A stretch of 64,000 nucleotides of DNA from Candidatus Eisenbacteria bacterium (lineage in GTDB: Bacteria > Eisenbacteria > RBG-16-71-46 > CAIMUX01 > JAHJDP01), in NCBI GenBank assembly GCA_018831195.1, contig JAHJDP010000023.1, forward strand, positions 1-64,000, written 5' to 3'. Position numbers and translations under genes: made by a program. Of the stretch, positions 2,090 through 16,529 are shown in pieces (within the stretch, counting starts at the first letter, position 1; each line of letters starts with the position of its first letter). The notes beneath the pieces were generated by a model, which was given only the letters and a program-made list of their open reading frames with translations, was not told where the DNA came from and ran no database searches.

Positions 2090-2410
2090 GGAATCCTGGA
2101 TCCCGTTCATGATGAGGGGATGAAAACCATCATTGAGCACGGCCTCCAATCGTCACGTACCCTGGTATTCATAATCTCGGCCACATCGCTTCGGTCCGAT
2201 TGGACACTAATGGAGCGAAACACGGCCCTGTTCCGAGATCCGGCAAACCAACAGCGTCGTTTTGTCCCAGTACTGATCGATGATTGCAAACACCAGTTCC
2301 CTGACACCCTGCGAAGATTCCGACACATTGACTTACGGCGGATGACGAAGAGAAACTACCAGGAGCTTCTAGAATCATGCCGGACCGCTGAAAAGCGGTG
2401 TCGTGATTGA
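2090..2410 (+). pseudogene. TIR-domain protein, N-terminus missing
   Basis: The frame from 2090 (GILDPVHDEGMKTIIEHG...) to the stop at 2408-2410 reads as the middle and C-terminal part of a TIR domain. The motif SSRTLVFIISATSLRSDW followed by E is the typical 'S-x-VLVIS..YL.S.W...E' strand and helix, then FVPVLIDDC, then HIDLRR and YQELLES. The first strand, with the conserved (F)DVF(I)SY and the early part of the NAD-binding pocket, is absent. Sequence identity to TIR begins right after the 21-bp repeat, so an insertion or deletion removed the 5' end. An in-frame stop precedes it at 2075-2077. An ATG at 2120 could start a 96-residue peptide, but that lacks the front of the fold. TIR domains are common in antiphage NADase systems; no partner gene follows. 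Confidence 0.55.
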
Positions 2411-2747
2411 CTTGACCACCTTCTGCGACTCCATTCAATCGCCAGGGGAATGGGTTTCTCACATCGTCAGTTGACGTAATTGGATCGCCTCAGTAGAATC
2501 TGGGGAGGAAAACGGACTGCGCCTTTTAGTTAAACCATGCGGTTCCAAATTCTTCTTATTCTCAACCTCCATAACCGCCGCGTTTTCAATCGATTGAGAC
2601 ATTTCCCCTCGAGCTCACTTAGGTTAGGCCCTTGTCTTGACGCTCTCGACCATCGTGCTATCCTGAATAATAGCATTAGTTTCAGCACGACTGCACCCTT
2701 TAACTACTTCGTGCAGTCCGATCTCATCCTTTAACAAACTCCCCTCT
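2411..2747. other. Intergenic, no recognisable feature
   Basis: This 337-bp stretch is poorer in G+C than the genes around it. It contains a short open frame at 2537-2734 that has no ribosome binding site and no protein-like character. I see no promoter or repeat that I can defend. Confidence 0.4.
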
Positions 2748-3350
2748 ATGCCAAGTCCGAAATACACCCAGCGACTTCCCAAGTATTTGACTCAGAACGA
2801 CATACGGGCTTTCTTCGGGGTTATTCAGGACCCGCGAGATCGCGCGCTCTTCGCGGTGATCTACCACTACGGCCTGCGGGTCAGCGAAGTGGGCCTCCTC
2901 GAACGGGACGACATCGACCTGGAGCGCGGGCGAATCGTCGTCAAGAGGGTGAAGGGGGGCCTCTGGGCGGAAAGACCCCTCTTCTCGGCAACCAGAGCCC
3001 TCCTGGAAGTCCACTTCAGCCGGCCGGGGGTCAACGGTCACACGGCCTTGTTTCCGGGACGATTGGATGCGCTTAAGAAGCGCCAGATCCAGGCTCTCTT
3101 CGCCCGGTACCGGGATGCCGCGTGCATCCCCCGCCGTTTGACCTGCCACTCGTTGCGGCACGCCATCGCGACGCACCTCCTGGACGCCGGCGTGTCTCTC
3201 GAGTTCGTTCAAGACCATCTCGGGCACCGGAGTATCAAGAGCACGAGCATCTACGCACGGATCACGGACCAGCACCGCACGGCGATATTCCGCGAGCTCG
3301 AGGCGTCACCGTGGATTGTGCACCCAGGGCACACGGCTTACACGGGGTAG
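2748..3350 (+). CDS. Tyrosine recombinase, catalytic domain only
   Basis: A 200-residue XerC/phage-integrase-like protein. All catalytic positions are visible: Arg44 (YGLRVSE), Lys69 (KRVKGG), His134-x-x-Arg137 (HSLRHAIATHLL), His160 (LGHRS) and the nucleophile Tyr169 (STSIYAR). Typical family members are about 300 residues. The usual N-terminal SAM-like core-binding domain is absent, and there is no coding extension upstream. Either it was lost or this belongs to a catalytic-domain-only type. No clear ribosome binding site precedes the ATG. The lipoprotein gene starts 13 bp after its stop with its own good ribosome binding site. It could mobilise the neighbouring lipoprotein genes or be a relic. 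Confidence 0.8.
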   Translation: MPSPKYTQRLPKYLTQNDIRAFFGVIQDPRDRALFAVIYHYGLRVSEVGLLERDDIDLERGRIVVKRVKGGLWAERPLFSATRALLEVHFSRPGVNGHTALFPGRLDALKKRQIQALFARYRDAACIPRRLTCHSLRHAIATHLLDAGVSLEFVQDHLGHRSIKSTSIYARITDQHRTAIFRELEASPWIVHPGHTAYTG

Positions 3351-5834: not shown

Positions 5835-6500
5835 ATGCCTGATCCCTTGTTGGCCAACATATTCTCTCATTGGCACAAGCCTTATGACGATTTCGAAACC
5901 TCAACCCTTGAATTCTACTCCGCGGTCGAAGCAGCCCTAAAGCGGCGTAGGATTCCCAAGATTGTGACTTCGAGGGTGGATTGGCGGGAGGGCGGCATCG
6001 GCACCCCGAAACGAAAATACCTTCGGGTGACTCGGGAGGATATGGCCTTCGATATTTGCGCCGCTCCGTTTGGCACCGGATTCTTTTTCTCATGGTGGCT
6101 CGGAACAACCGGTTCCGGCTTTATTCACTGGGTAATTGTGATCCTTCCCTCCCTCGCCTTTCTTCAGTTCGTGCAGAGCAGAGACGCTGGCCATGACTTG
6201 TTGGGTTTCCTTGCCTTTTTTATCCTCCTCTCCCCCTTCCTACGACTTGTAGCGCTCGTGAGTCGCAAGTATGGGCCGGGCGTTGATGATGCCGTGGGAC
6301 GGATTCCGGTGATCGGGTTTCTTTATCGAGCCCTCTTCACTCGTATCACCTACCACAGAATCGACACGATGCTCATGTTCCAGTCTGTCGTCCAATCAGC
6401 GGTCTGCGAAGTCATCGACGGTCTGACGAAGGCGAAAGGATTAAGGGTACTTGGGGATGACGAGAAGAAGCCGATTATGCGAGATCTATTCAAACGATAG
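5835..6500 (+). CDS. Membrane protein, first gene of the HerA/VirD4-like ATPase operon
   Basis: A 221-residue protein of no named family. The start at 5835 (MPDPLLANIF) sits behind GGAAGGAGG. Residues 1-85 are soluble, with a charged part (YLRVTREDMAFDICAAPFGT). Hydrophobic segments follow: FFFSWWLG with IHWVIVILPSLAFLQF, and LLGFLAFFILLSPFLRLVAL. The C-terminal third (VSRKYGPGVDDAVGR...QSAVCEVIDGL) is soluble again. It is 15 bp upstream of the giant ATPase gene and almost certainly translated with it, which suggests that it anchors the ATPase at the membrane or forms a channel. Whether it serves DNA transfer or defence cannot be told from the sequence. Confidence 0.7.
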   Translation: MPDPLLANIFSHWHKPYDDFETSTLEFYSAVEAALKRRRIPKIVTSRVDWREGGIGTPKRKYLRVTREDMAFDICAAPFGTGFFFSWWLGTTGSGFIHWVIVILPSLAFLQFVQSRDAGHDLLGFLAFFILLSPFLRLVALVSRKYGPGVDDAVGRIPVIGFLYRALFTRITYHRIDTMLMFQSVVQSAVCEVIDGLTKAKGLRVLGDDEKKPIMRDLFKR

Positions 6501-6515
6501 AGGGAGATCAACAAG

Positions 6516-9500
6516 GTGACGGATAGGCGTGATGCCTCTCCATGGTTGAAAACTGAGCTGCGGGCGGAATCCTTCTTGCCGACCCAAATGGAACTTCTCA
6601 CGGCTCAATTCTATATCTGGGAAGTACGCGGAAGAGGTTGGATTGTACACCCCACTCCTGTTGCGCTGGAGCCGCCGTTTGTCCCCTTCCCATTTCATTG
6701 GGTGCCAAGGGCTGGTCGAAGAATCGACGATGGGTGCAAACCAACGTTTCTCTCGAAAATCGCCCAACAATTCGACCAACTTGTTCATGGCAGGCAGGAC
6801 GACTCTTTAACATACAACGATGAGAATCTTATTCTCGAAGAACCCGAACTTGAGACGGATGAGGATGATTCCCCGATTGTAGAACTGCGCCTGTCCGCTC
6901 CTCCCATGCTGAAGACTCCGCGCGAAGCCGTGATCCAGTTCCTCTCAAGCCTTCCGGTCGCCGTTCATCCGCTGACGTTTGAAATCGTGGGTCTGTCAGA
7001 TGTGATCACTGCACAGATCACGGTTCGTGAACCCGACGCACGGTTCATCGAGCAGCAACTAAGAGCGTATTTCCCCGACGTCGTCGTGACTCGCGAGGTC
7101 GAGTATCTGCGATCCTGGTGGCACGAAGCCGGGGAAGCGTCAAGCATCATCGTCGACTTCGCCCTCTCCAACGAGTTCATGCTTCCGCTTAAGACATTCA
7201 AGGGCTTTGACATTGACCCGCTGATCGCAGTGGTGTCTGCACTCTCCAATCTCCAACTGGGCGAAGTGGGCATCCTTCAGATCATGTTCCAGCCCACGCG
7301 TCATCCCTGGGCCGAAAACGTCATGCGGTCCGTGACAGATCATGAAGGCAAAGCCTTCTTTATGGATGCCCCAGAAATCACAAGGGCTGCGAAAGACAAG
7401 GTTGCACATCCTCTCTTCGCCGCAGTGATCCGAATCGGGATTAAGAGCTCTTATTTGGACCGCGCATGGGATATCGCTCGGGCGCTCGGGGGGAGTCTGC
7501 GGAATCTCGCGAATCCTGCCGGAAACGAACTCATCCCTCTAACAAACGATGGTTACGACAGCGACGAGCATGAAGAGGATCTTCTTCGAAGGCGGACTCG
7601 TCGTAGCGGAATGCTTTTAAACTCCGAAGAACTCGTTACATTAGTCCACCCTCCGTCGGCATCTGTAAGAGCGGAGAAATTAAAGCGGCAGGACCGGAAG
7701 ACGCGCGCCGCCCCAGCCATTGCCACGGGCGACGGGCTCTTGCTCGGCACAAACATCCACGCCGGCCGGTCGACCGAGGTAACTTTATCTGCCGACCAGC
7801 GCTCGAAACACTTGTACACGGTGGGTGCTTCTGGTACGGGCAAGTCGACCCTGCTCTTAAACCTCATCATTCAGGATTTGCGAAATGGAGAAGGGATTGC
7901 TGTCCTCGACCCACACGGGGACCTGATTGACCGGATCATTGAGCAGGTGCCCGATGAAAGGATCGACGATGTCATTCTGTTCGATCCGGCCGATGCTGAC
8001 TTCCCTGTCGGATTCAATATCCTTTCGGCCCATTCTGAACTTGAACGGACGCTTCTCTCCTCCGATCTCGTTTCCGTCTTCAGGAGGCTCTCAACCTCCT
8101 GGGGGGATCAAATGACCTCGGTACTTGGGAACGCGATCCTGGCGATCCTCGAAAGCAGCCGAGGAGGAACCCTTCTCGATCTCAGGCGGTTCCTGGTGGA
8201 GAAACGATTCCGGGAGGAATTCCTAGCGACAGTTCAGGATCCCGATGTTGTTTATTACTGGCGTAAAGAGTTTCCGCTTTTAAAAGGGACACCCCAAGTC
8301 TCGATTCTGACGCGACTGGATACATTTCTTCGGCCGAAACTCGTGCGGTACATGGTGGCACAGAAAGATGATCGCCTTGATTTTCGAGGAATGATGGATC
8401 AAGGCAAGATCTTCCTTGCCCGGCTTTCCCAGGGAGCTATTGGTGAGGAGAACGCCTTTCTACTCGGAACGCTGCTTGTTTCAAAACTCCAGCAGACCGC
8501 AATGAGTCGACAGGAACTCGCCGAAGCGGGCCGTCGTCCCTTCTACCTATACATTGACGAATTCCAGAACTTCATCACGCCGACGATGGAACAGATACTC
8601 TCCGGCGCCCGGAAGTACCGGCTGGGTTTGATACTGGCACATCAGGATTTAAGACAGCTTGCCAGCAAGAGTCCCGAGGTTTTGAACTCCGTCATTTCGA
8701 ACCCATATACGCGAATCTGTTTCCGGGTAGGCGACCAAGACGCCCGAAGACTCGAGGATGGCTTCGCATCATTCGATGCCACCGATCTTCAGAACTTAAG
8801 CACGGGTCAGGCGATCTGTCGCACAGAGCGAGCAGAGTTTGACTTCAGCCTTAACACAGCAGGGTTGCCACCTATAGATGCTACGTCTGTTGAGGCGCGC
8901 CGAAAGGCGATCGTTGAACAATCCCGAGCGAAGTACGCCAGGAGACGCGATGAGGTCGAAGAGATACTCCGCGCGGCTGCCCCTGAGAACACGCGCGACC
9001 TGGGCGTTCCAACGGGCGCAAAGAAACCCTCGGAGACAATTCCTGAACCCATCGTCAGGTCAACTTATAGCGAAACAGAAGCAGCAAAAGCGAGGAAGGC
9101 GCCCAATCATGTTCCGGCCCTGTCATTGCCTCCTACCCAAGGACGCGGAGGACGCCAGCACAAGTACCTTCAGGAGCTAGTCAAACGGTGGGCTGGTTCC
9201 CGGGATTGGAGGGCAACGATCGAGGAGAAGACCCTTGATGGTCTCGGCAGTGTGGACGTTGCTTTACGGAAAGGCGATCGGTCCGTCGCCTGTGAAATCG
9301 CCGTCACGACGGATGCCGAGCACGAAATAGAAAACATCCAGAAATGTCTCGCGGCTGGCTTCGAGCTCATCTTGCTTATCTCATCTGACAAGAAGACGCT
9401 GTCCAAAGTGCGGTCTATTGTTTTCTCAGAGTTTGCAGAGGAGAGCCGTGATCGCGTCCACATCTGTACTCCGGAGGACGCATTCGCTTTCCTGGAAAAC

Positions 9501-9650
9501 ATCGAGGCAGAGACGGCAGGGTCTAACAAGACAGTTCGGGGATACAAGGTTAATGTGAAATACAAAGCGGTTGGTGAACAGGAGAAGTCGGCCAAGCGAC
9601 AAGCTGTGTCGCGAGTTATCGCAAAGGCATTTAGTCGTTTGAAAAAGTAG
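6516..9650 (+). CDS. HerA/VirD4-like ATPase with C-terminal nuclease-like domain
   Basis: A 1044-residue protein with a GTG start 15 bp after the upstream stop, preceded by AGGGAGA. Residues 1-400 are an unassigned N-terminal region of alpha/beta character. Residues about 415-800 are a FtsK/HerA-type motor of the TraD/VirD4 sort: Walker A GASGTGKST (437-445), the strand IAVLDPHGDLIDRII, Walker B YLYIDEFQN (677-685), and the later LILAHQDLRQL sensor strand. After a charged linker, residues 880-1000 resemble a restriction-endonuclease-like fold: KYLQELVKRWA, then GSVDVALRKGD with Asp914, and SVACEIAVT with Glu927. The Lys expected two residues after Glu927 is Ala929. Soluble in itself, it is flanked by two membrane-protein genes in the same operon. 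In known families such pumps move or unwind DNA. It could belong to a conjugation-like system or to a HerA-type defence system; no relaxase or VirB genes are nearby. Confidence 0.8.
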   Translation: MTDRRDASPWLKTELRAESFLPTQMELLTAQFYIWEVRGRGWIVHPTPVALEPPFVPFPFHWVPRAGRRIDDGCKPTFLSKIAQQFDQLVHGRQDDSLTYNDENLILEEPELETDEDDSPIVELRLSAPPMLKTPREAVIQFLSSLPVAVHPLTFEIVGLSDVITAQITVREPDARFIEQQLRAYFPDVVVTREVEYLRSWWHEAGEASSIIVDFALSNEFMLPLKTFKGFDIDPLIAVVSALSNLQLGEVGILQIMFQPTRHPWAENVMRSVTDHEGKAFFMDAPEITRAAKDKVAHPLFAAVIRIGIKSSYLDRAWDIARALGGSLRNLANPAGNELIPLTNDGYDSDEHEEDLLRRRTRRSGMLLNSEELVTLVHPPSASVRAEKLKRQDRKTRAAPAIATGDGLLLGTNIHAGRSTEVTLSADQRSKHLYTVGASGTGKSTLLLNLIIQDLRNGEGIAVLDPHGDLIDRIIEQVPDERIDDVILFDPADADFPVGFNILSAHSELERTLLSSDLVSVFRRLSTSWGDQMTSVLGNAILAILESSRGGTLLDLRRFLVEKRFREEFLATVQDPDVVYYWRKEFPLLKGTPQVSILTRLDTFLRPKLVRYMVAQKDDRLDFRGMMDQGKIFLARLSQGAIGEENAFLLGTLLVSKLQQTAMSRQELAEAGRRPFYLYIDEFQNFITPTMEQILSGARKYRLGLILAHQDLRQLASKSPEVLNSVISNPYTRICFRVGDQDARRLEDGFASFDATDLQNLSTGQAICRTERAEFDFSLNTAGLPPIDATSVEARRKAIVEQSRAKYARRRDEVEEILRAAAPENTRDLGVPTGAKKPSETIPEPIVRSTYSETEAAKARKAPNHVPALSLPPTQGRGGRQHKYLQELVKRWAGSRDWRATIEEKTLDGLGSVDVALRKGDRSVACEIAVTTDAEHEIENIQKCLAAGFELILLISSDKKTLSKVRSIVFSEFAEESRDRVHICTPEDAFAFLENIEAETAGSNKTVRGYKVNVKYKAVGEQEKSAKRQAVSRVIAKAFSRLKK

Positions 9651-9666
9651 GAAAAGGAGAAAGCGC

Positions 9667-10380
9667 ATGGATACCCGAAGCCGAGATCCCAATGAAATAA
9701 AGTCGCGTCTGAGACCAGAATGGATGAATGGCCTTGGCACACTTCTGATCGGGATTGGAGCTCTATTCACGCCGCTCGTCGTCGGTTCCATGACCGCGTC
9801 CATCACTAAATCCAACAGCGAAAGCGAAGTGGGTGTGCGAATGATTGAAGTAGCCGTGGATTTGCTGAAGCAGTCTCCGGACTCACTCGGGCGCGATCGT
9901 GATAGCAAGGAATGGGCAAGGAAGATAGTCAACAACTACTCTCCCATCCCGCTGCCTGAAGACGCCGTTTTAACAAGCTCGGCTCTGCGTGTAGTGGGCC
10001 CAGATCGCGTGATTAATTTCTCACTGACTCCGGACAGTCTCATCGCCGATGTGAACCTCTTTCAGAATCCAGACCAGCCCGTTAATCAATGGAACGCTCC
10101 ATCTGCACAACCTATGATGACCATCATGGAACCTAACCGCCCTTCGAAGCGAAGGCTCTTCGGACAGTATCTGCTGGGCAATCCACAGTGCGCACGGTTT
10201 CTTCTTCCCCGGACAGATCTCGGCAGAAAGCTGCGCATCGTCTTAGAGATGGTTCATCCCGAGATGAAAGATTCTGGATGGCCTGTCCAAGAAATCTCGA
10301 ATTACTGGCGAAGTGAGGGTCCTAGTCTTCATGTCCAGGTGACTCTGGAGAACGACATCCTGGTCACCAGGCGATGGTAA
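9667..10380 (+). CDS. Single-span membrane protein, third gene of the ATPase operon
   Basis: A 237-residue protein, start at 9667 with AAAAGGAGAAA upstream and only 16 bp after the ATPase stop. Residues about 20-45 (MNGLGTLLIGIGALFTPLVV) form one membrane segment near the N-terminus. The remaining ~190 residues are a soluble domain of mixed alpha/beta composition, with no recognised motif. By topology it would place this domain on the far side of the inner membrane. Gene spacing makes it an obligate member of the operon. It may be the sensor or substrate-binding part of the complex; that is an inference from order and topology alone. Confidence 0.65.
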   Translation: MDTRSRDPNEIKSRLRPEWMNGLGTLLIGIGALFTPLVVGSMTASITKSNSESEVGVRMIEVAVDLLKQSPDSLGRDRDSKEWARKIVNNYSPIPLPEDAVLTSSALRVVGPDRVINFSLTPDSLIADVNLFQNPDQPVNQWNAPSAQPMMTIMEPNRPSKRRLFGQYLLGNPQCARFLLPRTDLGRKLRIVLEMVHPEMKDSGWPVQEISNYWRSEGPSLHVQVTLENDILVTRRW

Positions 10381-10887: not shown

Positions 10888-11124
10888 TTGGATCCTGCAG
10901 TTTTGTCCAATCGAAGCATGGAACAGATAATTCTATCGGGATGTGATCTGATGCGCACAGGAGCACAAGCAGAACCCACTTCCAAGTTTGTTGGTATCTG
11001 GATCTGGGTATCCACCATGGACCATGTAAAGGATGAGAATTCCGATCAGCACGAGCGTCAAGTTTATATGTACGTCGAGATAATAAATACCCTGATTATT
11101 GGAGCCTCCTTGGAGTTTTTATGA
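10888..11124 (+). pseudogene. Decayed 5' fragment of a large serine recombinase
   Basis: The residues AQAEPTSKFVGIWIWVSTMD followed by HVKDENSDQHERQVYMYVEI align without gaps to the N-terminal part of the intact recombinase gene starting at 13961 ([20 protein letters not shown] and following). They include the VST motif with the catalytic serine. The DNA is also clearly similar: GTATCTGGAT and GTATCCACC are shared. After about 40 residues the similarity stops and the frame ends at 11122-11124, so the rest of the catalytic domain and the DNA-binding part are gone. It is best explained as the leftover of a second, related element that had inserted at the same place. Confidence 0.7.
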
Positions 11125-11568
11125 TCTTCTTCCCTGCACCCAGACACTGTTATGTCTAATCTAATAAGGGATTAGAGCTAACGACCCGCAAGATGTCGTT
11201 TGGGGCAACGCCTTTGGTTGTGTTGCCTGACGGTATATCCTACACTACTTTGAGTATGGGCTTTTCTGGAATCCCAATTTTTTATTTAGGTCTGCTGACC
11301 AGGAATTATGAATAGAATCCGTCTCAGGCAACCATACACCCAGGCGAGGTTCTACAGTACTAAACAAGATATGATGCGAATTCTGATGACAACTAGGAGA
11401 ACGAGGCAAAGACCTAGCATTCGTGGATGTCATTGATGCAGGCATCATGGAAGTGGTGAAATATAATGCCGAATCTCAAGTATCAAGGCTGAATCTGAAA
11501 GTGACTTTAAGTTTACAGATCATGTTCATTTATGGACGAATTTTAACTTGTTTGAGAGGAAACGGATT
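11125..11568. other. AT-richer intergenic stretch between recombinase relic and deaminase gene
   Basis: No gene is recognised. Two small inverted repeats are visible: CTAATC/GATTAG at 11156-11175 and GGCAAC/GTTGCC at 11204-11227. Either could be a relic of an attachment site or a terminator, but neither has a T-run. The region must contain the promoter of the deaminase gene; no convincing -35/-10 pair was found. Confidence 0.35.
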
Positions 11569-12774
11569 ATGACCACAAACGAGCACCCCTGGCGGGATTG
11601 GATCCCAGGTGTATTATCCAAGAATCAAGTTCGTCAGCTCATACGTTGCGGGCATCTTCGGGGTGTTGATGAGGATAGCGAGGCCATCGGCAATGCTTCG
11701 TTTGATCTTAGCTTGGCAGATCTAGGTTATGTTTGCATGAGAGGGTCCATTAAGCCGTTCGGCGGTCCATATGAAGAACCGATAAAGCGGGACGGATTAA
11801 TTGATCGTTTAGAACCTCAACCAGACGGCACATACATCCTTAAAGCCAAACAAACCTACCTTTTCAAGGTTGCGCAGAGACTTTGCATTCCGTCGGAGGC
11901 ACAAATCTATGGCCAGGCGACAACAAAGAGTTCCATTGGCCGGATGGACGTCCTCGCCCGACTTGTGATTGAACAAATGACTGATTACGACACCTATAGA
12001 CCTCTTAAAAATGGCCAATCGTTCGGGGATATGTTTCTTGAGATCACTCCGATAACATTTCCGGTACGGGTCCGTCCTGGCCTCGCTCTCACTCAGCTCC
12101 GATTGTTCTACGATGACCCCCAGAGTGTAGAGATCCAAAGTAATCAGCTCTATTCCAATATTCTCGCGGCGGATGGAGAAGAAGTCGACGGAACACTATC
12201 AGTCGATCTCTCTCCAATTACCGTGTCAGGCGAGGCTGTCTCGGCGTTCTCTGCCCGACCTGTAGAACCAGGCGGTGATCCGCTACCTCTTTGGCAGGAG
12301 GAGGATCCTCAACACAGGCTAGATCCGTGCAAGTACTGGCAATTCGAAAGACTGGATCAACAAGGACGCCTCACGATTAAGGAGCGTGACTTCTACATTC
12401 TTCGTTCGCGGGAGCACATTGCAGTTCCGAAAGGTATTGCCGTTTACTGCCGGGCATTTGACGAAACCTTCGGTGAGATGCGCATTCACTATGCTGGATT
12501 CGTCCATCCACTCTTCGGTCGGGAACGCGCGGATGGGGTACGCGGAACCCCCCTAATATTCGAAGTTCGCGGTCACGACGTGAATGTCAGTCTCCGGAAT
12601 GGCGAGAAGATGGCCCGGCTAACTTTCTATAGGATGTCAGAGGATGTTGAAAATGCGGACCAATCATACAACGACCAATTACTCCAGCTTTCAAACCGAT
12701 TTGCACCTTGGCCCGAGTGTATCAAAGTCGATCCAGATGGGAGCGTCCGGCCTGTCAAAGAGGCCGACTCGTAA
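11569..12774 (+). CDS. Long-form dCTP deaminase with two tandem Dcd-like domains
   Basis: A 401-residue protein; the ATG at 11569 lies 8 bp after GAGAGGA. Short Dcd enzymes have about 190 residues; this is the long type with two copies of the fold. First domain: ASFDLSLADLGYVCM, then ATTKSSIGRMDVLARL and GDMFLEITPITFPVRV with Glu158 at the place of the catalytic Glu, then RPGLALTQLRL. Second domain: DFYILRSREHIAVPKGIAVY, GVRGTPLIFEVRGHDVN and NGEKMARLTFY. The family converts dCTP to dUTP in the cytoplasm. It works either in dTTP supply or, in some bacteria, as an antiphage enzyme that drains dCTP. A GNAT-ASCH gene overlaps its 3' end and a serine recombinase follows, so here it is mobile cargo, which favours the defence role. 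Confidence 0.85.
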   Translation: MTTNEHPWRDWIPGVLSKNQVRQLIRCGHLRGVDEDSEAIGNASFDLSLADLGYVCMRGSIKPFGGPYEEPIKRDGLIDRLEPQPDGTYILKAKQTYLFKVAQRLCIPSEAQIYGQATTKSSIGRMDVLARLVIEQMTDYDTYRPLKNGQSFGDMFLEITPITFPVRVRPGLALTQLRLFYDDPQSVEIQSNQLYSNILAADGEEVDGTLSVDLSPITVSGEAVSAFSARPVEPGGDPLPLWQEEDPQHRLDPCKYWQFERLDQQGRLTIKERDFYILRSREHIAVPKGIAVYCRAFDETFGEMRIHYAGFVHPLFGRERADGVRGTPLIFEVRGHDVNVSLRNGEKMARLTFYRMSEDVENADQSYNDQLLQLSNRFAPWPECIKVDPDGSVRPVKEADS

Positions 12775-13810
12775 TCTCCAGATTGTCAGACTCACAGCCG
12801 ATGACGCGATTCGAGAGACTGATTCTCTTCGAGACTTCAAGGTGTTCGCGGGACGAAGCATCGGACACTATCCTTCAATCCAGCCATGGATCTCCACGAA
12901 GGTGGTCCCGGGGATCCGAAGGGACACACGAGCAGTGTATGTCGGCTACCTTGACGGTTTGCCGATCGCTACAGCAGTCGCGAAGCTTGGTCCAGATGCT
13001 AAATTCTGTCATCTCCGCATCAGTCCCGAGATGCGGGATCAACATCTCGGTGAGCTTCTATTCTCCCTCATGACAATGGATGTCCGAAACACCGCCCGAT
13101 CGGTGCATTTCACACTACCCGAGAGTGTCTGGGAACAGGAGAGAGAGTTCTTCGCCTCCTTTGGATTCAGCAAGGTCGAAAAGGCTGGACTCCAGTATCG
13201 GTTGTTCGAGGAGGAACTATTCTGTCGTACGCCGTACTCAGTTGTTTGGGATGCCGTCCTTGAAAAACTTCCGAAACTCGATCATATCTATCAGATTGGG
13301 GGATATCAGGTTAAACCCGACGTTGTCTTGAGCCTAAAACCCGTCTATGCACAACTCATTCTTACTGGCCGGAAGACGGTCGAGGTGCGACGGCGATTCA
13401 ATCGGAAATGGGCCGGAAAACGTGCCGTTCTTTATGCGTCTCGACCACTCGGTGCACTTATTGGTGAAGCCCTCATTGCTGATGTCGTTTCGGGAACGCC
13501 GTCGGCAATCTGGAACGAGTACGGAAAAGCTATTGGTTGTAGCATCAGAGAGTATGAAAATTATGTCACAGGCGCTACGGAAATCTCCGCCCTTATCCTA
13601 GGTGAAATTCTTCCCTACATCTCACCGATTCCATTGATGCAGGTTAGTCACTTGATCAAGCGAGATGTCAGGGCACCCCAATCTTATTGTTCAGTCGAGG
13701 ATAGCAATTCATGGGGGAAGGCAGTGGCAATCGCTGCCATGCTTCACGGGGTGTCACATCGTATCCAGACCGATCATGAAGGAACACTATCACATGGTAC
13801 CAATCTGTGA
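12737..13810 (+). CDS. GNAT acetyltransferase fused to an ASCH domain
   Basis: The start is uncertain; I use the ATG at 12737 inside the end of the deaminase gene, giving 357 residues and a 38-bp overlap, so translation is probably coupled. Residues about 15-190 resemble a GNAT fold: AVYVGYLDGLPIATAVAKLG, then LRISPEMRDQHLGELLFSLM at the acetyl-CoA loop. Residues about 195-300 are an ASCH (PUA-like) domain: VVLSLKPVYAQLILTGRKTV, the GRKTVEVR motif with Lys213 and Glu216, then AVLYASRPLGALIGEALIAD. ASCH domains bind RNA or nucleotides. In YqfB of E. coli the same fold hydrolyses N4-acetylcytidine, with Lys and Thr in the matching motif; the Thr is Glu here, so that activity is doubtful. Together with the deaminase it suggests cytosine-nucleotide chemistry. 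Confidence 0.7.
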   Translation: MGASGLSKRPTRNLQIVRLTADDAIRETDSLRDFKVFAGRSIGHYPSIQPWISTKVVPGIRRDTRAVYVGYLDGLPIATAVAKLGPDAKFCHLRISPEMRDQHLGELLFSLMTMDVRNTARSVHFTLPESVWEQEREFFASFGFSKVEKAGLQYRLFEEELFCRTPYSVVWDAVLEKLPKLDHIYQIGGYQVKPDVVLSLKPVYAQLILTGRKTVEVRRRFNRKWAGKRAVLYASRPLGALIGEALIADVVSGTPSAIWNEYGKAIGCSIREYENYVTGATEISALILGEILPYISPIPLMQVSHLIKRDVRAPQSYCSVEDSNSWGKAVAIAAMLHGVSHRIQTDHEGTLSHGTNL

Positions 13811-13960: not shown

Positions 13961-15559
13961 ATGCATCTTAAGATGAAGAGTGTTTCAGAACCACGAGGAC
14001 AGTCTAACGTAGAAGCAAAGTCCGTCGGTATCTGGATCCGAGTATCCACCGAGGACCAAGCAAAGGGCGAAAGTCCCGAGCATCACGAGCGACGGGCTCG
14101 TATGTACGCCGCGGTGAAGGGGTGGCAAGTCCGGGAGGTGTATCACCTCGAGGCCGTCTCTGGGAAGTCTGTCATGAGCCTTCCCGAGACCGGACGGATG
14201 CTAGAACACATCCGATCGGGTCATATTACAGCACTCATCTTCTCGAAACTCGCACGGCTGGCTCGAAACACCCGTGAGCTCCTGGAGTTCGCTGATATTT
14301 TCCGAGATCACGAGGCGAATCTCATCTCACTGTCAGAGGCGATCGACACCTCGACTCCGGCCGGTCGCTTGTTTTTCACCGTCGTGGCGGCGATGGCGCA
14401 GTGGGAACGGGAGGAGATTGCGGATCGTGTCGCCGCCTCGGTTCCGATCCGGGCGAAGCTCGGAAGACCCCTCGGGGGAGCCGCCCCCTTTGGTTATCGC
14501 TGGGAGAACCGAGAACTCATCCCAGACCCAAAGGAGACTCCGGTTCGCAAGCTAATGTATGAGCTGTTCTTGGAGCATAAACGCAAGAAGACGGTGGCTC
14601 GGCTCCTCAATGAAAAGGGCTATCGGACCAGGAGCGGGTCGAAGTTCTCGGACACGACTGTGGATCGCCTCCTCAGGGACCCGATTGCGAAAGGCATCCG
14701 CCGGGCCAACTACACGAAGTCTCTGGGCGCGAAGAAGCACTGGAAGGAGAAACCCCGGAACGAATGGGTCCTCACCGCGGTCGAGCCCATCATCACTGAG
14801 GAAACCTGGAACGCCGCGAACGCCATCCTCGAAGAACGACGCCGCAACCGCAAGCCCCGGTCCCGGAAACCCGTCCACCTCTTCGCGGGACTTGTCTTCT
14901 GCGGGTGCGGCCAGAAGATGTACGTCCTCACGAAGACAACGAAGTACGGCTGCCAGAAGTGTCACAACAAGATTCCTGTCGAGGACCTAGAATGCGTCTT
15001 TGCCGAGCAGCTGAAGGGCTTCGTCTTCTCCCCCGAGGAAGTCGCCGCCCACCTCGGCCAGGCGGACGAGGAGATCAAGGCCAAGGAGGACACCCTCCGG
15101 GCGCTCGAAACCGAACGAGACCGAGTCGTCCGGGAGATGGATCGCATCTACAAGGCCTACATCGCCGACGAGTTCTCAGTCCAAGGCTTCGGCAGGCAGT
15201 ACCGCCCCCTCGAAGAACGCCTAAATCAAATCGAGGTTGAGCTTCCCCAACTGCAGGGCGAGATTGACTTCTACACGATCCAATACCTATCTCGGGACGA
15301 GATCCTTAGCGAAGCGAGAGACCTCTACTCCCGCTGGCCCAGCCTGGCCTCAGATGACAAGAAACAAATCGTGGAACACATTGTCGAACGAATCGTTATC
15401 GGGAAGGGTGACATCGAGATCCACCTCAGCTACCTACCTTCCTCCCCTCTGTTCTCAGAACTCGTCACAAAAGAGCAACGCAACTCCAGGGATTCATCGA
15501 GGCGATTAACGAGAATCGTGCGGGAAATCGTACAGAGAGGCCGGCGCGAACCAAGGTGA
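13961..15559 (+). CDS. Large serine recombinase (integrase) inserted in comM
   Basis: 532 residues from the ATG at 13961 (GGGTGGAG ribosome binding site; a GTG at 13949 is possible). Residues 20-165 are the resolvase domain with catalytic Ser29 ([10 protein letters not shown]) and the [11 protein letters not shown] and MAQWEREEI helices. Residues 170-290 form the recombinase domain ([22 protein letters not shown]). A zinc ribbon follows (FCGCGQKMY...YGCQKCH), then a long coiled coil (residues ~370-440). Such enzymes integrate and excise elements without host factors. The gene runs right through the right-hand element/host border: codons after ~509 (from about 15488) are antisense comM DNA, so the last ~23 residues come from the host. 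A decayed relative lies at 10888. It probably mobilised the deaminase genes and perhaps the whole region to its left. Confidence 0.9.
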
Positions 15560-16529
15560 TCTCGCCGTCCTCCAGGGGCTGCCGCAGGATCTCCAAGACA
15601 TGCCGCGGAAACTCCGGAAGCTCATCCAGGAACAAAACACCCCGATGGGCCTGGCTGATCTCTCCCGGCCGGATCGGCCTCCCGCCGCCGGCCAGCCCGG
15701 CGGCTGAGCAGGAGTGATGCGGGGCTCGAAAAGGACGCCGCCACAATAAGCCCATCCCCGACTCGAGCAGCCCGGCGGCGCTGTGCACCCGGGTCACCTC
15801 GATGCTCTCTTCAAAACTCAGTTCCGGAAGGATCCCCGGCAGGCGCCCGGCCAGCAACGTTTTCCCCGCGCCCGGCGGACCCACCATCAGAAGATTGTGC
15901 CCACCCGCCGCGGCGACCTCCATCGCCCGCTTGGCGGCGGCCTGCCCGCGCACCTGTGAAAAGCAGGGCCCGGCGTCGGCGTCGGCATCCCTCGCAACGA
16001 CCCCCTCGGATCGCGGCCATTCCCTATCCGTCAGCTTGCCGACGACAGCCCGGAGGTTCTCGGCCTCGAACATGGGAATCCCCCGGATGGCTTGGGCCTC
16101 CGCCCCATTCCCCTCGGGGACGAGAAGCCGCCAATCCCTTTCCCGGCAACGCATGGCCATGGAGAGCACCCCCCGCACACGCCGGACCCGTCCATCCAGC
16201 GACAGCTCGCCCACGATGTAGGTCCGTTTGAGAACCTCCGGGGGAAGCTGCCGCGAAGCGGCCAGAATGCCGACGGCGATTGGTAAGTCCAACAGGGTAC
16301 CAGACTTAGGCACGCCGGCCGGGGCAAGATTGACGAGGATCCGCGTGGTCGGAAAATCGAAGCCGGCATTTCTGAGGGCGGTGGCGATCCGCCCCCGGCT
16401 CTCGCGGATGGAGGTCGCCGGCAGGCCTACTATAGAGAAGTCGGTGGCCCCATCACTCACATTGACCTCAACCCGGACCGGGAAGGCATCGATCCCCACC
16501 AACGAGAAGGAGTAGACGCAGGCCAGCAT
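15465..16529 (-). pseudogene. comM: ComM/YifB Mg-chelatase-like AAA+ ATPase, split by the element
   Basis: 354 codons from the ATG at 16529, of which about 347 are native; intact proteins have about 500. The N-terminal ChlI-like domain is complete ([46 protein letters not shown]). It is followed by the AAA+ core with Walker [24 protein letters not shown] and Walker [12 protein letters not shown]. The sequence ends shortly after IASMNP, just where the conserved CPCG and the arginine-finger and C-terminal parts should follow. ComM is a hexameric helicase that promotes branch migration during DNA uptake. Here it must be inactive unless the element excises. The missing 3' half is not found leftward in the window. 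Confidence 0.9.
15480..15496. other. Right attachment junction of the element in comM
   Basis: On the minus strand comM reads ...SLIASMNP and then switches from the expected CPCG-type continuation to WSCVALL and a stop. The break therefore lies within the codons for Pro-Trp, at about 15487-15491 on the plus strand (CCAGGGATT). The exact core dinucleotide cannot be fixed without the partner site, which is not in the window. Confidence 0.65.

Follow-up and report, generated by a model that had tools for sequence, protein, structure and literature searches.

What does a large DNA-motor ATPase do when its gene lies between two genes for small putative membrane proteins in an apparently mobile region of a bacterial genome? 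This question was raised by a locus in a stretch of 64,000 nucleotides from Candidatus Eisenbacteria bacterium (contig JAHJDP010000023.1, positions 1 to 64,000; the whole stretch is hereinafter referred to as the window), where m1, an ATPase gene and m3 follow one another on the plus strand. The original prediction took them for a candidate undescribed three-gene system with an antiphage or plasmid-exclusion function. Comparison with related loci indicated that m1 and the ATPase, together with an integrase, very probably form the core operon of a family of integrative elements; no description of such a core was found in the papers searched, which were open-licence PubMed Central text, and the system is still regarded as a candidate undescribed one. 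The whole favoured reading adds that this core serves as a relaxase-free DNA pump for self-transfer. We lean towards that reading with much less confidence, and the pump itself is plausible by analogy with known systems.

The three open reading frames (ORFs) and their spacers (15 bp between m1 and the ATPase, 16 bp between the ATPase and m3) were present as predicted, with Shine-Dalgarno (SD)-like sequences ahead of m1 and m3. The features needed for the argument are as follows.

5835..6500, plus strand: m1, 221 aa, ATG start, SD GGAGG
6516..9650, plus strand: VirD4/HerA-superfamily ATPase, 1044 aa, GTG start, comprising an N-terminal region, a motor (about 410-800), a linker and a nuclease-like tail (Pfam/NCBIfam, alignments, AlphaFold model, Foldseek)
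9141..9650, plus strand: PD-(D/E)xK-like C-terminal domain of the ATPase (invariant columns, predicted topology)
9667..10380, plus strand: m3, 237 aa, ATG start, SD AAGGAG; accessory protein with a single transmembrane (TM) segment
13949..15559, plus strand: large serine recombinase (Resolvase and Recombinase domains; Pfam), the element integrase
15473..15489, plus strand: recombinase-proximal attachment-site arm, GAGCAACGCAACTCCAG, with the junction at 15489/15490
15490..16529, minus strand: comM/yifB, 5' half; interrupted between codons M-N-P and C-P-C-G

The m1-ATPase pair and its integrase

Full-length relatives of the ATPase were 44-67% identical (alignment A1), and their hosts included metagenome-assembled genomes (MAGs) labelled Verrucomicrobia, Acidobacteria, and Candidatus Eisenbacteria. 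Matches at E <= 1e-150 were obtained in 5 of 388 sampled genomes in the phylum of G051 (Verrucomicrobia) and in 7 of 396 in the phylum of G049 (Acidobacteria). The Eisenbacteria locus L003 is held by G001, which belongs to the same order as the window, and two further loci with the pair came from IMG/VR contigs. Regions built from these loci bear the numbers of their genomes (E047-E052, N017-N730, and F245; E047 is from G047, and both N245 and F245 are from G245).

In relatives from three phyla, m1 directly preceded the ATPase; wherever the 5' end of the ATPase gene was intact and upstream DNA was available, m1 was present upstream, with E050c as the sole exception. The spacing was exceptional in E048, where the two genes are 3.1 kb apart, and the m1 match was weak in N555 and N598 (E 1e-9 to 1e-11). 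A homologue of m3, with 36% identity and the same gene order, was present at one other locus only (L003/L014), and the three-gene system was therefore dropped. Thus, the co-occurrence expected of all three genes held across phyla for m1 and the ATPase, but not for m3.

A site-specific integrase was encoded downstream of the ATPase, on the same strand, at 22 of 24 informative loci (19 serine and 3 tyrosine recombinases). Loci with usable downstream DNA were counted as informative; N730 and N699 run off contig edges. The enzyme at 19 loci belonged to a single family of large serine recombinases and shared about 48-76% identity with the window copy (the window itself, E047, E048, E049, E020, E051, E052a/b, E050a/b/c, N242, N245, N176, N077, N054, N017, L087, and L088). 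A tyrosine recombinase stood in its place at three loci of the Acidobacteria phylum, namely 39-47 bp after the ATPase in N555 (called by similarity) and N598 (called by profile), and in N593a (27% identity). N582 retained recombinase remnants, and N593b had a broken ATPase. Where no cargo intervened, the gaps between ATPase and recombinase were -1, 3, 50, 80, and 94 bp. In addition, four genomes of 3.8-6.3 Mb (G049, G245, G176, and G077) each contained a single Recombinase-domain gene, which was the element's own.

Distances of m1, the ATPase and the recombinase were correlated over 13 loci (Mantel r 0.79, 0.68, and 0.72; p = 0.0001); the permutation keeps host phylogeny in, and these values therefore support common travel of the three genes without proving coupling. 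The recurrence of the m1-ATPase pair with an integrase, together with the insertion into host genes described below, led us to regard the pair as the core of an integrative element family. The operon had been placed inside a mobile region, and the evidence goes further, in that the operon is itself the core of the mobile element.

Insertion sites and cargo

The window recombinase runs into comM, which lies on the minus strand, and its final codons extend into comM DNA. The sole Mg_chelatase_C match of the genome was located in the terminal bases of contig C37 (G000:C37:88672-89089), starting at the crossover codon, and comM is thus split in the window genome. The break of C37 at the junction, at most suggestive of excision, could be due to a mixed population of integrated and empty sites. 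The comM junction was identical to that of the window in E047, E048, and E049. E051, N245, and L088 likewise have their insertions in comM, as does E020, which is joined to the other half of the gene. The 3' halves of comM were not found in the upstream DNA examined for E047, E048, and E051. F245 is complete and spans about 39.5 kb from one comM half to the other; its ends show an apparent two-base overlap, CC. In both the window and F245, the integrase is found at one end of the element and adjoins the interrupted attachment gene, as in integrative elements of the large serine recombinase (LSR) type. Other genes were also targeted: the N077 element sits in dprA, and truncated ORFs point to further apparent targets, namely nth for E052a, a TRIC-type gene for N176, and a bcp-like gene for N242.

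Such a target has precedents. In a passage on target choice, Mg-chelatase/comM is given as the target of 12.4% of predicted site-specific integrases and as a frequent LSR target (PMC10083194); those elements share the target gene with ours, and the passage deals with target choice rather than with an m1-ATPase core. In Acinetobacter, comM is likewise split by elements that often bear defence systems, although many of these islands are Tn7-like AbaR elements, in other hosts and with other mobility genes, and the loss of comM reduces transformation (PMC11472951).

The cargo, which occupies the left part and the interval separating the ATPase from the recombinase and often includes defence systems, varied among elements, while m1, the ATPase and the integrase were constant. 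In F245, the right part consists of m1, the ATPase and the recombinase, following a cargo that includes genes for IrrE-like, ThiF, SNase, and ArdC proteins, a tyrosine recombinase, and a replication-initiation-like protein. It also comprises a second VirD4-like ATPase, Replic_Relax, and a DnaG-like primase, as well as a cyclic oligonucleotide-based antiphage signalling system (CBASS; cyclase plus SAVED-HNH), a type III restriction-modification (R-M) system, PDC-S06, and an SNF2 helicase. A module of short VirD4, Replic_Relax, and primase was common to the E050 and N242 elements; Replic_Relax and primase were tested by profile on the E050 homologues and called by similarity in F245. The E052 elements carried a short VirD4 with a type I methyltransferase, and L087 an IetAS pair. 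Three elements were found in one Verrucomicrobia MAG (G050, L042-L048) and two in a different MAG (G052, L049-L052), each element being accompanied on its contig by another, short VirD4-like ATPase at a distance of about 5-26 kb.

In the window, the following features lie between m3 and the integrase; neither cargo gene has a conserved counterpart in the relatives.

10963..11082, plus strand: N-terminal relic of a serine recombinase; identity to the intact copy 45% (tblastn)
11569..12774, plus strand: cargo, two-domain dCTP deaminase (DCD_N and DCD_C; Pfam)
12644..13810, plus strand: cargo, GNAT and ASCH protein (PADLOC candidate PDC-M11B), the real start of which is probably inside this ORF

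A degenerate serine recombinase N-terminus, similar to that in the window, was also observed just after m3 in L003 (11906-12208). These relics suggest that cargo, and with it a new recombinase, was added stepwise at the right end. A short palindrome, GGGCAACGCCTTTGGTTGTGTTGCC, follows the relic in the window (11200-11240); it is similar to the GGCAAC arm found in the attachment sites and may represent a former attP or a hairpin. Upstream of the operon, a gene with a partial TIR_2 domain and a 200-aa tyrosine recombinase were noted (2120-3350). The contig opens inside an apparent IS1380-type transposase (1-270; HESDHVLNIAYNILAGG, by eye), which probably explains why the contig breaks off on the left side of the element, and the left end of the element was not found in the window. 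In E020, two 3' halves of comM lie about 6 kb from each other (L060/L061, 21373 and 27560), which suggests tandem or successive insertions at one site.

Phage origin was rejected, as no full-length match was obtained in 50,697 phage records. One of the two IMG/VR contigs with the m1-ATPase pair also has terminase-like genes; on this contig (L088, 8262-13271), HNH and terminase-like genes follow the split comM and appear to represent a prophage on the side of comM away from the element. Plasmid relatives covered <= 57% of the ATPase among the matches listed (the motor, in some cases with a portion of the N-terminal region); for m1, no plasmid match was obtained.

Predicted structure of the ATPase and m1

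Three Pfam models matched the ATPase above their cut-offs (TrwB_AAD_bind, 2.3e-8; TraG-D_C, 2.5e-6; T4SS-DNA_transf, 3.6e-5). By sequence, it belongs to the VirD4/TraG group within the HerA/FtsK superfamily, and the motor type originally assigned was thus upheld, with a TrwB fold match in addition. Matches to NCBIfam were partial and far under the family cut-offs, and that to FtsK_SpoIIIE (E = 0.033) was under the Pfam cut-off. The relatives retained the Walker A motif (GASGTGKS, 437-444) and, in the B motif, the DE pair at 681-682. PADLOC mad8 matched the motor alone (7e-18), and no other mad family was matched by the neighbouring window ORFs scanned; the likeness to the methylation-associated defence system (MADS) is therefore limited to a mad8-type motor.

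The tail (876-1044) contains invariant alignment columns at D914, E927, E937, N940, and K943, and the order predicted by the AlphaFold model is helix-strand-strand-strand-helix-strand. Both fit a PD-(D/E)xK fold, as the presumed nuclease-like domain would require, but no profile search gave significant support for PD-(D/E)xK and no meaningful PDB match to the tail was obtained. The tail was missing in a Saccharibacteria relative (L009). In the model, the predicted local distance difference test (pLDDT) score was mostly 80-95 in the N-terminal region (about 120-385); the tail was also confident and the motor was poorer. The best Foldseek matches were VirB4/TrwK over 770-898 alignment columns, followed by TrwB and HerA, and HerA-DUF4297 was also among the matches. 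No match to the CagE_TrbE_VirB / PF03135 VirB4 domain was detected in the window ATPase sequence, and a profile of its N-terminal region gave no meaningful PDB match.

Alignments A2 and A4 showed that m1 comprises a conserved alpha/beta N-terminal domain, a TM hairpin, and a conserved C-terminal TY..DT motif. Hydropathy predicted a pair of TM segments for m1 (about 92-144) and a single segment for m3 (about 22-40), in accordance with the membrane proteins predicted on both sides of the ATPase. The predicted model of m1 had a pLDDT of 71 and its fold search returned no match at E < 0.001; neither m1 nor m3 matched a known family.

A small two-TM protein gene just ahead of a large ATPase gene, with TrwK/VirB4 as the top Foldseek match, recalls the VirB3-VirB4 pair. 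The window pair differs in having no PF03135 match, no other VirB genes, and an extra nuclease-like tail.

Possible self-transfer and its alternatives

If the core operates as a transfer pump, the following steps may be envisaged. The recombinase would first excise the element. The ATPase would form a hexameric ring at the membrane, docked via m1 as VirB4 is via VirB3, and would pump the element DNA toward a contacted cell, while the PD-(D/E)xK-like tail would cut or process the DNA, standing in for a relaxase. The recipient may take up the DNA, possibly through a competence apparatus of its own, after which reinsertion would be carried out by the recombinase. Insertion into comM would also lower the odds that the element is removed by transformation.

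Two known systems make such a pump conceivable. Actinomycete integrative and conjugative elements (AICEs) are integrative elements with one DNA translocase, TraB, and are not known to carry relaxase or channel genes. TraB is FtsK-like (PMC5365140), whereas the window ATPase matches FtsK_SpoIIIE under the cut-off. TdtA of ICETh1, which functions in transjugation in Thermus thermophilus, is a HerA-like hexamer needed in the donor only, and the recipient uses its competence apparatus (PMC5365140). ICETh1 combines a HerA-superfamily hexameric motor with a nuclease gene on a small integrative element carrying restriction genes; the window family resembles it in having a motor of this superfamily and an integrase, with restriction genes among the cargo of some members and a nuclease-like tail predicted from motif and topology. 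In ICETh1, TdtA (about 64 kDa) is accompanied by a separate NurA-like nuclease, and the integrase is of the XerC type and located at a tRNA (PMC5365140), whereas the window family has a fused nuclease-like domain, a VirD4/VirB4-like motor with m1, and an integrase that is mostly a serine recombinase in coding genes; no separate NurA gene was found beside the window ATPase. We regard TdtA as the nearest working analogue and TraB of AICEs as the second, the likeness being one of presumed working mode.

The absence of a relaxase and a VirB-type channel near the motor, noted at the outset, extends to the elements, in which neither was recognised. No relaxase was found among the scanned ORFs of the complete element F245. 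Relaxase PF03432 was absent from 10 of 11 element-bearing genomes and otherwise lay off the element contigs, the MOBT, MOBV, MOBH, and MOBC types not having been searched genome-wide. TrwC (PF08751) was absent from 7 of the 11 genomes and in the other 4 never occurred on the element contig, and VirB4 PF03135 was absent from all 11. The recurrent neighbour of the homologues was the integrase instead of relaxase and type IV secretion genes. A classical integrative and conjugative element (ICE) or integrative and mobilizable element (IME) was rejected, with no relaxase found in the elements and no VirB4 in the host genomes.

Several observations weigh against self-transfer. Neither an oriT nor a DNA-processing site was identified. 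The m1 hairpin is absent from two otherwise conserved homologues, N077 and L088, and membrane anchoring is therefore not universal. The N-terminal region of the ATPase had no sequence match to VirB4 in profile searches, and the global TM-scores of the fold matches were low (0.2-0.5), because domain placement is uncertain. Moreover, the motor has phage relatives in phrog_5156, including those of SPO1 and phage G (window ATPase versus phrog_5156, E 1.9e-66), and such ATPases therefore have other uses. ComEC was present in 11 of 11 host genomes, but it is common in bacteria and hence not strong support for uptake by the recipient. As a side observation, SPO1 gp27.4, CampHawk, and phage G gp156, from large Bacillus phages, were distant relatives of the motor plus part of the N-terminal region.

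The function originally proposed, in which a membrane-docked m1-ATPase pump captures incoming DNA and destroys it with the nuclease-like tail, thereby protecting the host and blocking rival elements, is unlikely. HerA-type motors act in known defence systems, and the mad8 match, the HerA-DUF4297 fold match, and the frequency of defence genes in the elements (CBASS, type III R-M, PDC-S06, type I R-M, and IetAS) are in line with such a role. However, these genes differ between elements like other cargo, while m1-ATPase does not, and the constant neighbour is an integrase of whichever type rather than another defence gene. Profile scans of m1, m3 and the neighbouring genes of the window detected no partner nuclease or effector domain of HerA-NurA, HerA-SIR2, or HerA-DUF4297. 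With the integrase at 22 of 24 informative loci, the co-divergence, and the split host gene, a stand-alone defence operon was rejected as the principal interpretation.

Similarly improbable is a helper role in excision, replication, or recombination, with the translocase working on the element's DNA within the cell (serine-recombinase directionality or circle resolution), as FtsK does on XerCD. ATPase and integrase often adjoin, even overlap, and co-diverge, and the absence of TM segments from the m1 homologues of N077 and L088 would suit a cytoplasmic role. On the other hand, the ATPase family also pairs with tyrosine recombinases, whereas direct control is usually enzyme-specific; large serine recombinases normally require a small directionality factor alone; and the closest folds are VirB4/TrwB.

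An IME strategy, in which the ATPase would act as the element's own coupling protein and pass its DNA to conjugation machinery encoded by a co-resident element, is very unlikely: some IMEs do encode VirD4-type coupling proteins, the F245, E050, and E052 elements have two VirD4-like ATPases, and an Embleya plasmid places a short relative by PrgI, ATP-binding (VirB4-like), and Replic_Relax genes, but none of the 11 host genomes has a canonical VirB4 to hijack and the elements have no recognised relaxase. Streptomyces/Embleya plasmid modules resemble the left module of several elements in having a short VirD4-like ATPase by Replic_Relax; they add PrgI, ATP-binding (VirB4-like), and NlpC/P60 genes, none of which was seen in the elements here.

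Self-transfer by the m1-ATPase core can be extended to a fuller, tentative picture that we consider rather doubtful as a whole: widespread self-transferring integrative elements of Verrucomicrobiota, Acidobacteriota, and Eisenbacteria in which a pump of the VirB4/VirD4 kind, fused to a nuclease, replaces the relaxase, no type IV channel is used, the recipient takes up the DNA, defence islands are spread, and comM is disabled. If the pump moves the element, three poorly cultivated phyla would possess a minimal, relaxase-free form of DNA transfer that also serves defence genes as a vehicle, and the spread of defence islands would be tied to the loss of comM. The family offers a compact test of whether a single VirB4/VirD4-like motor with a nuclease tail suffices to move DNA between cells, a capacity proposed for TdtA and TraB. 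Even without transfer, the annotated core of m1, ATPase, and integrase provides a means of finding such elements.

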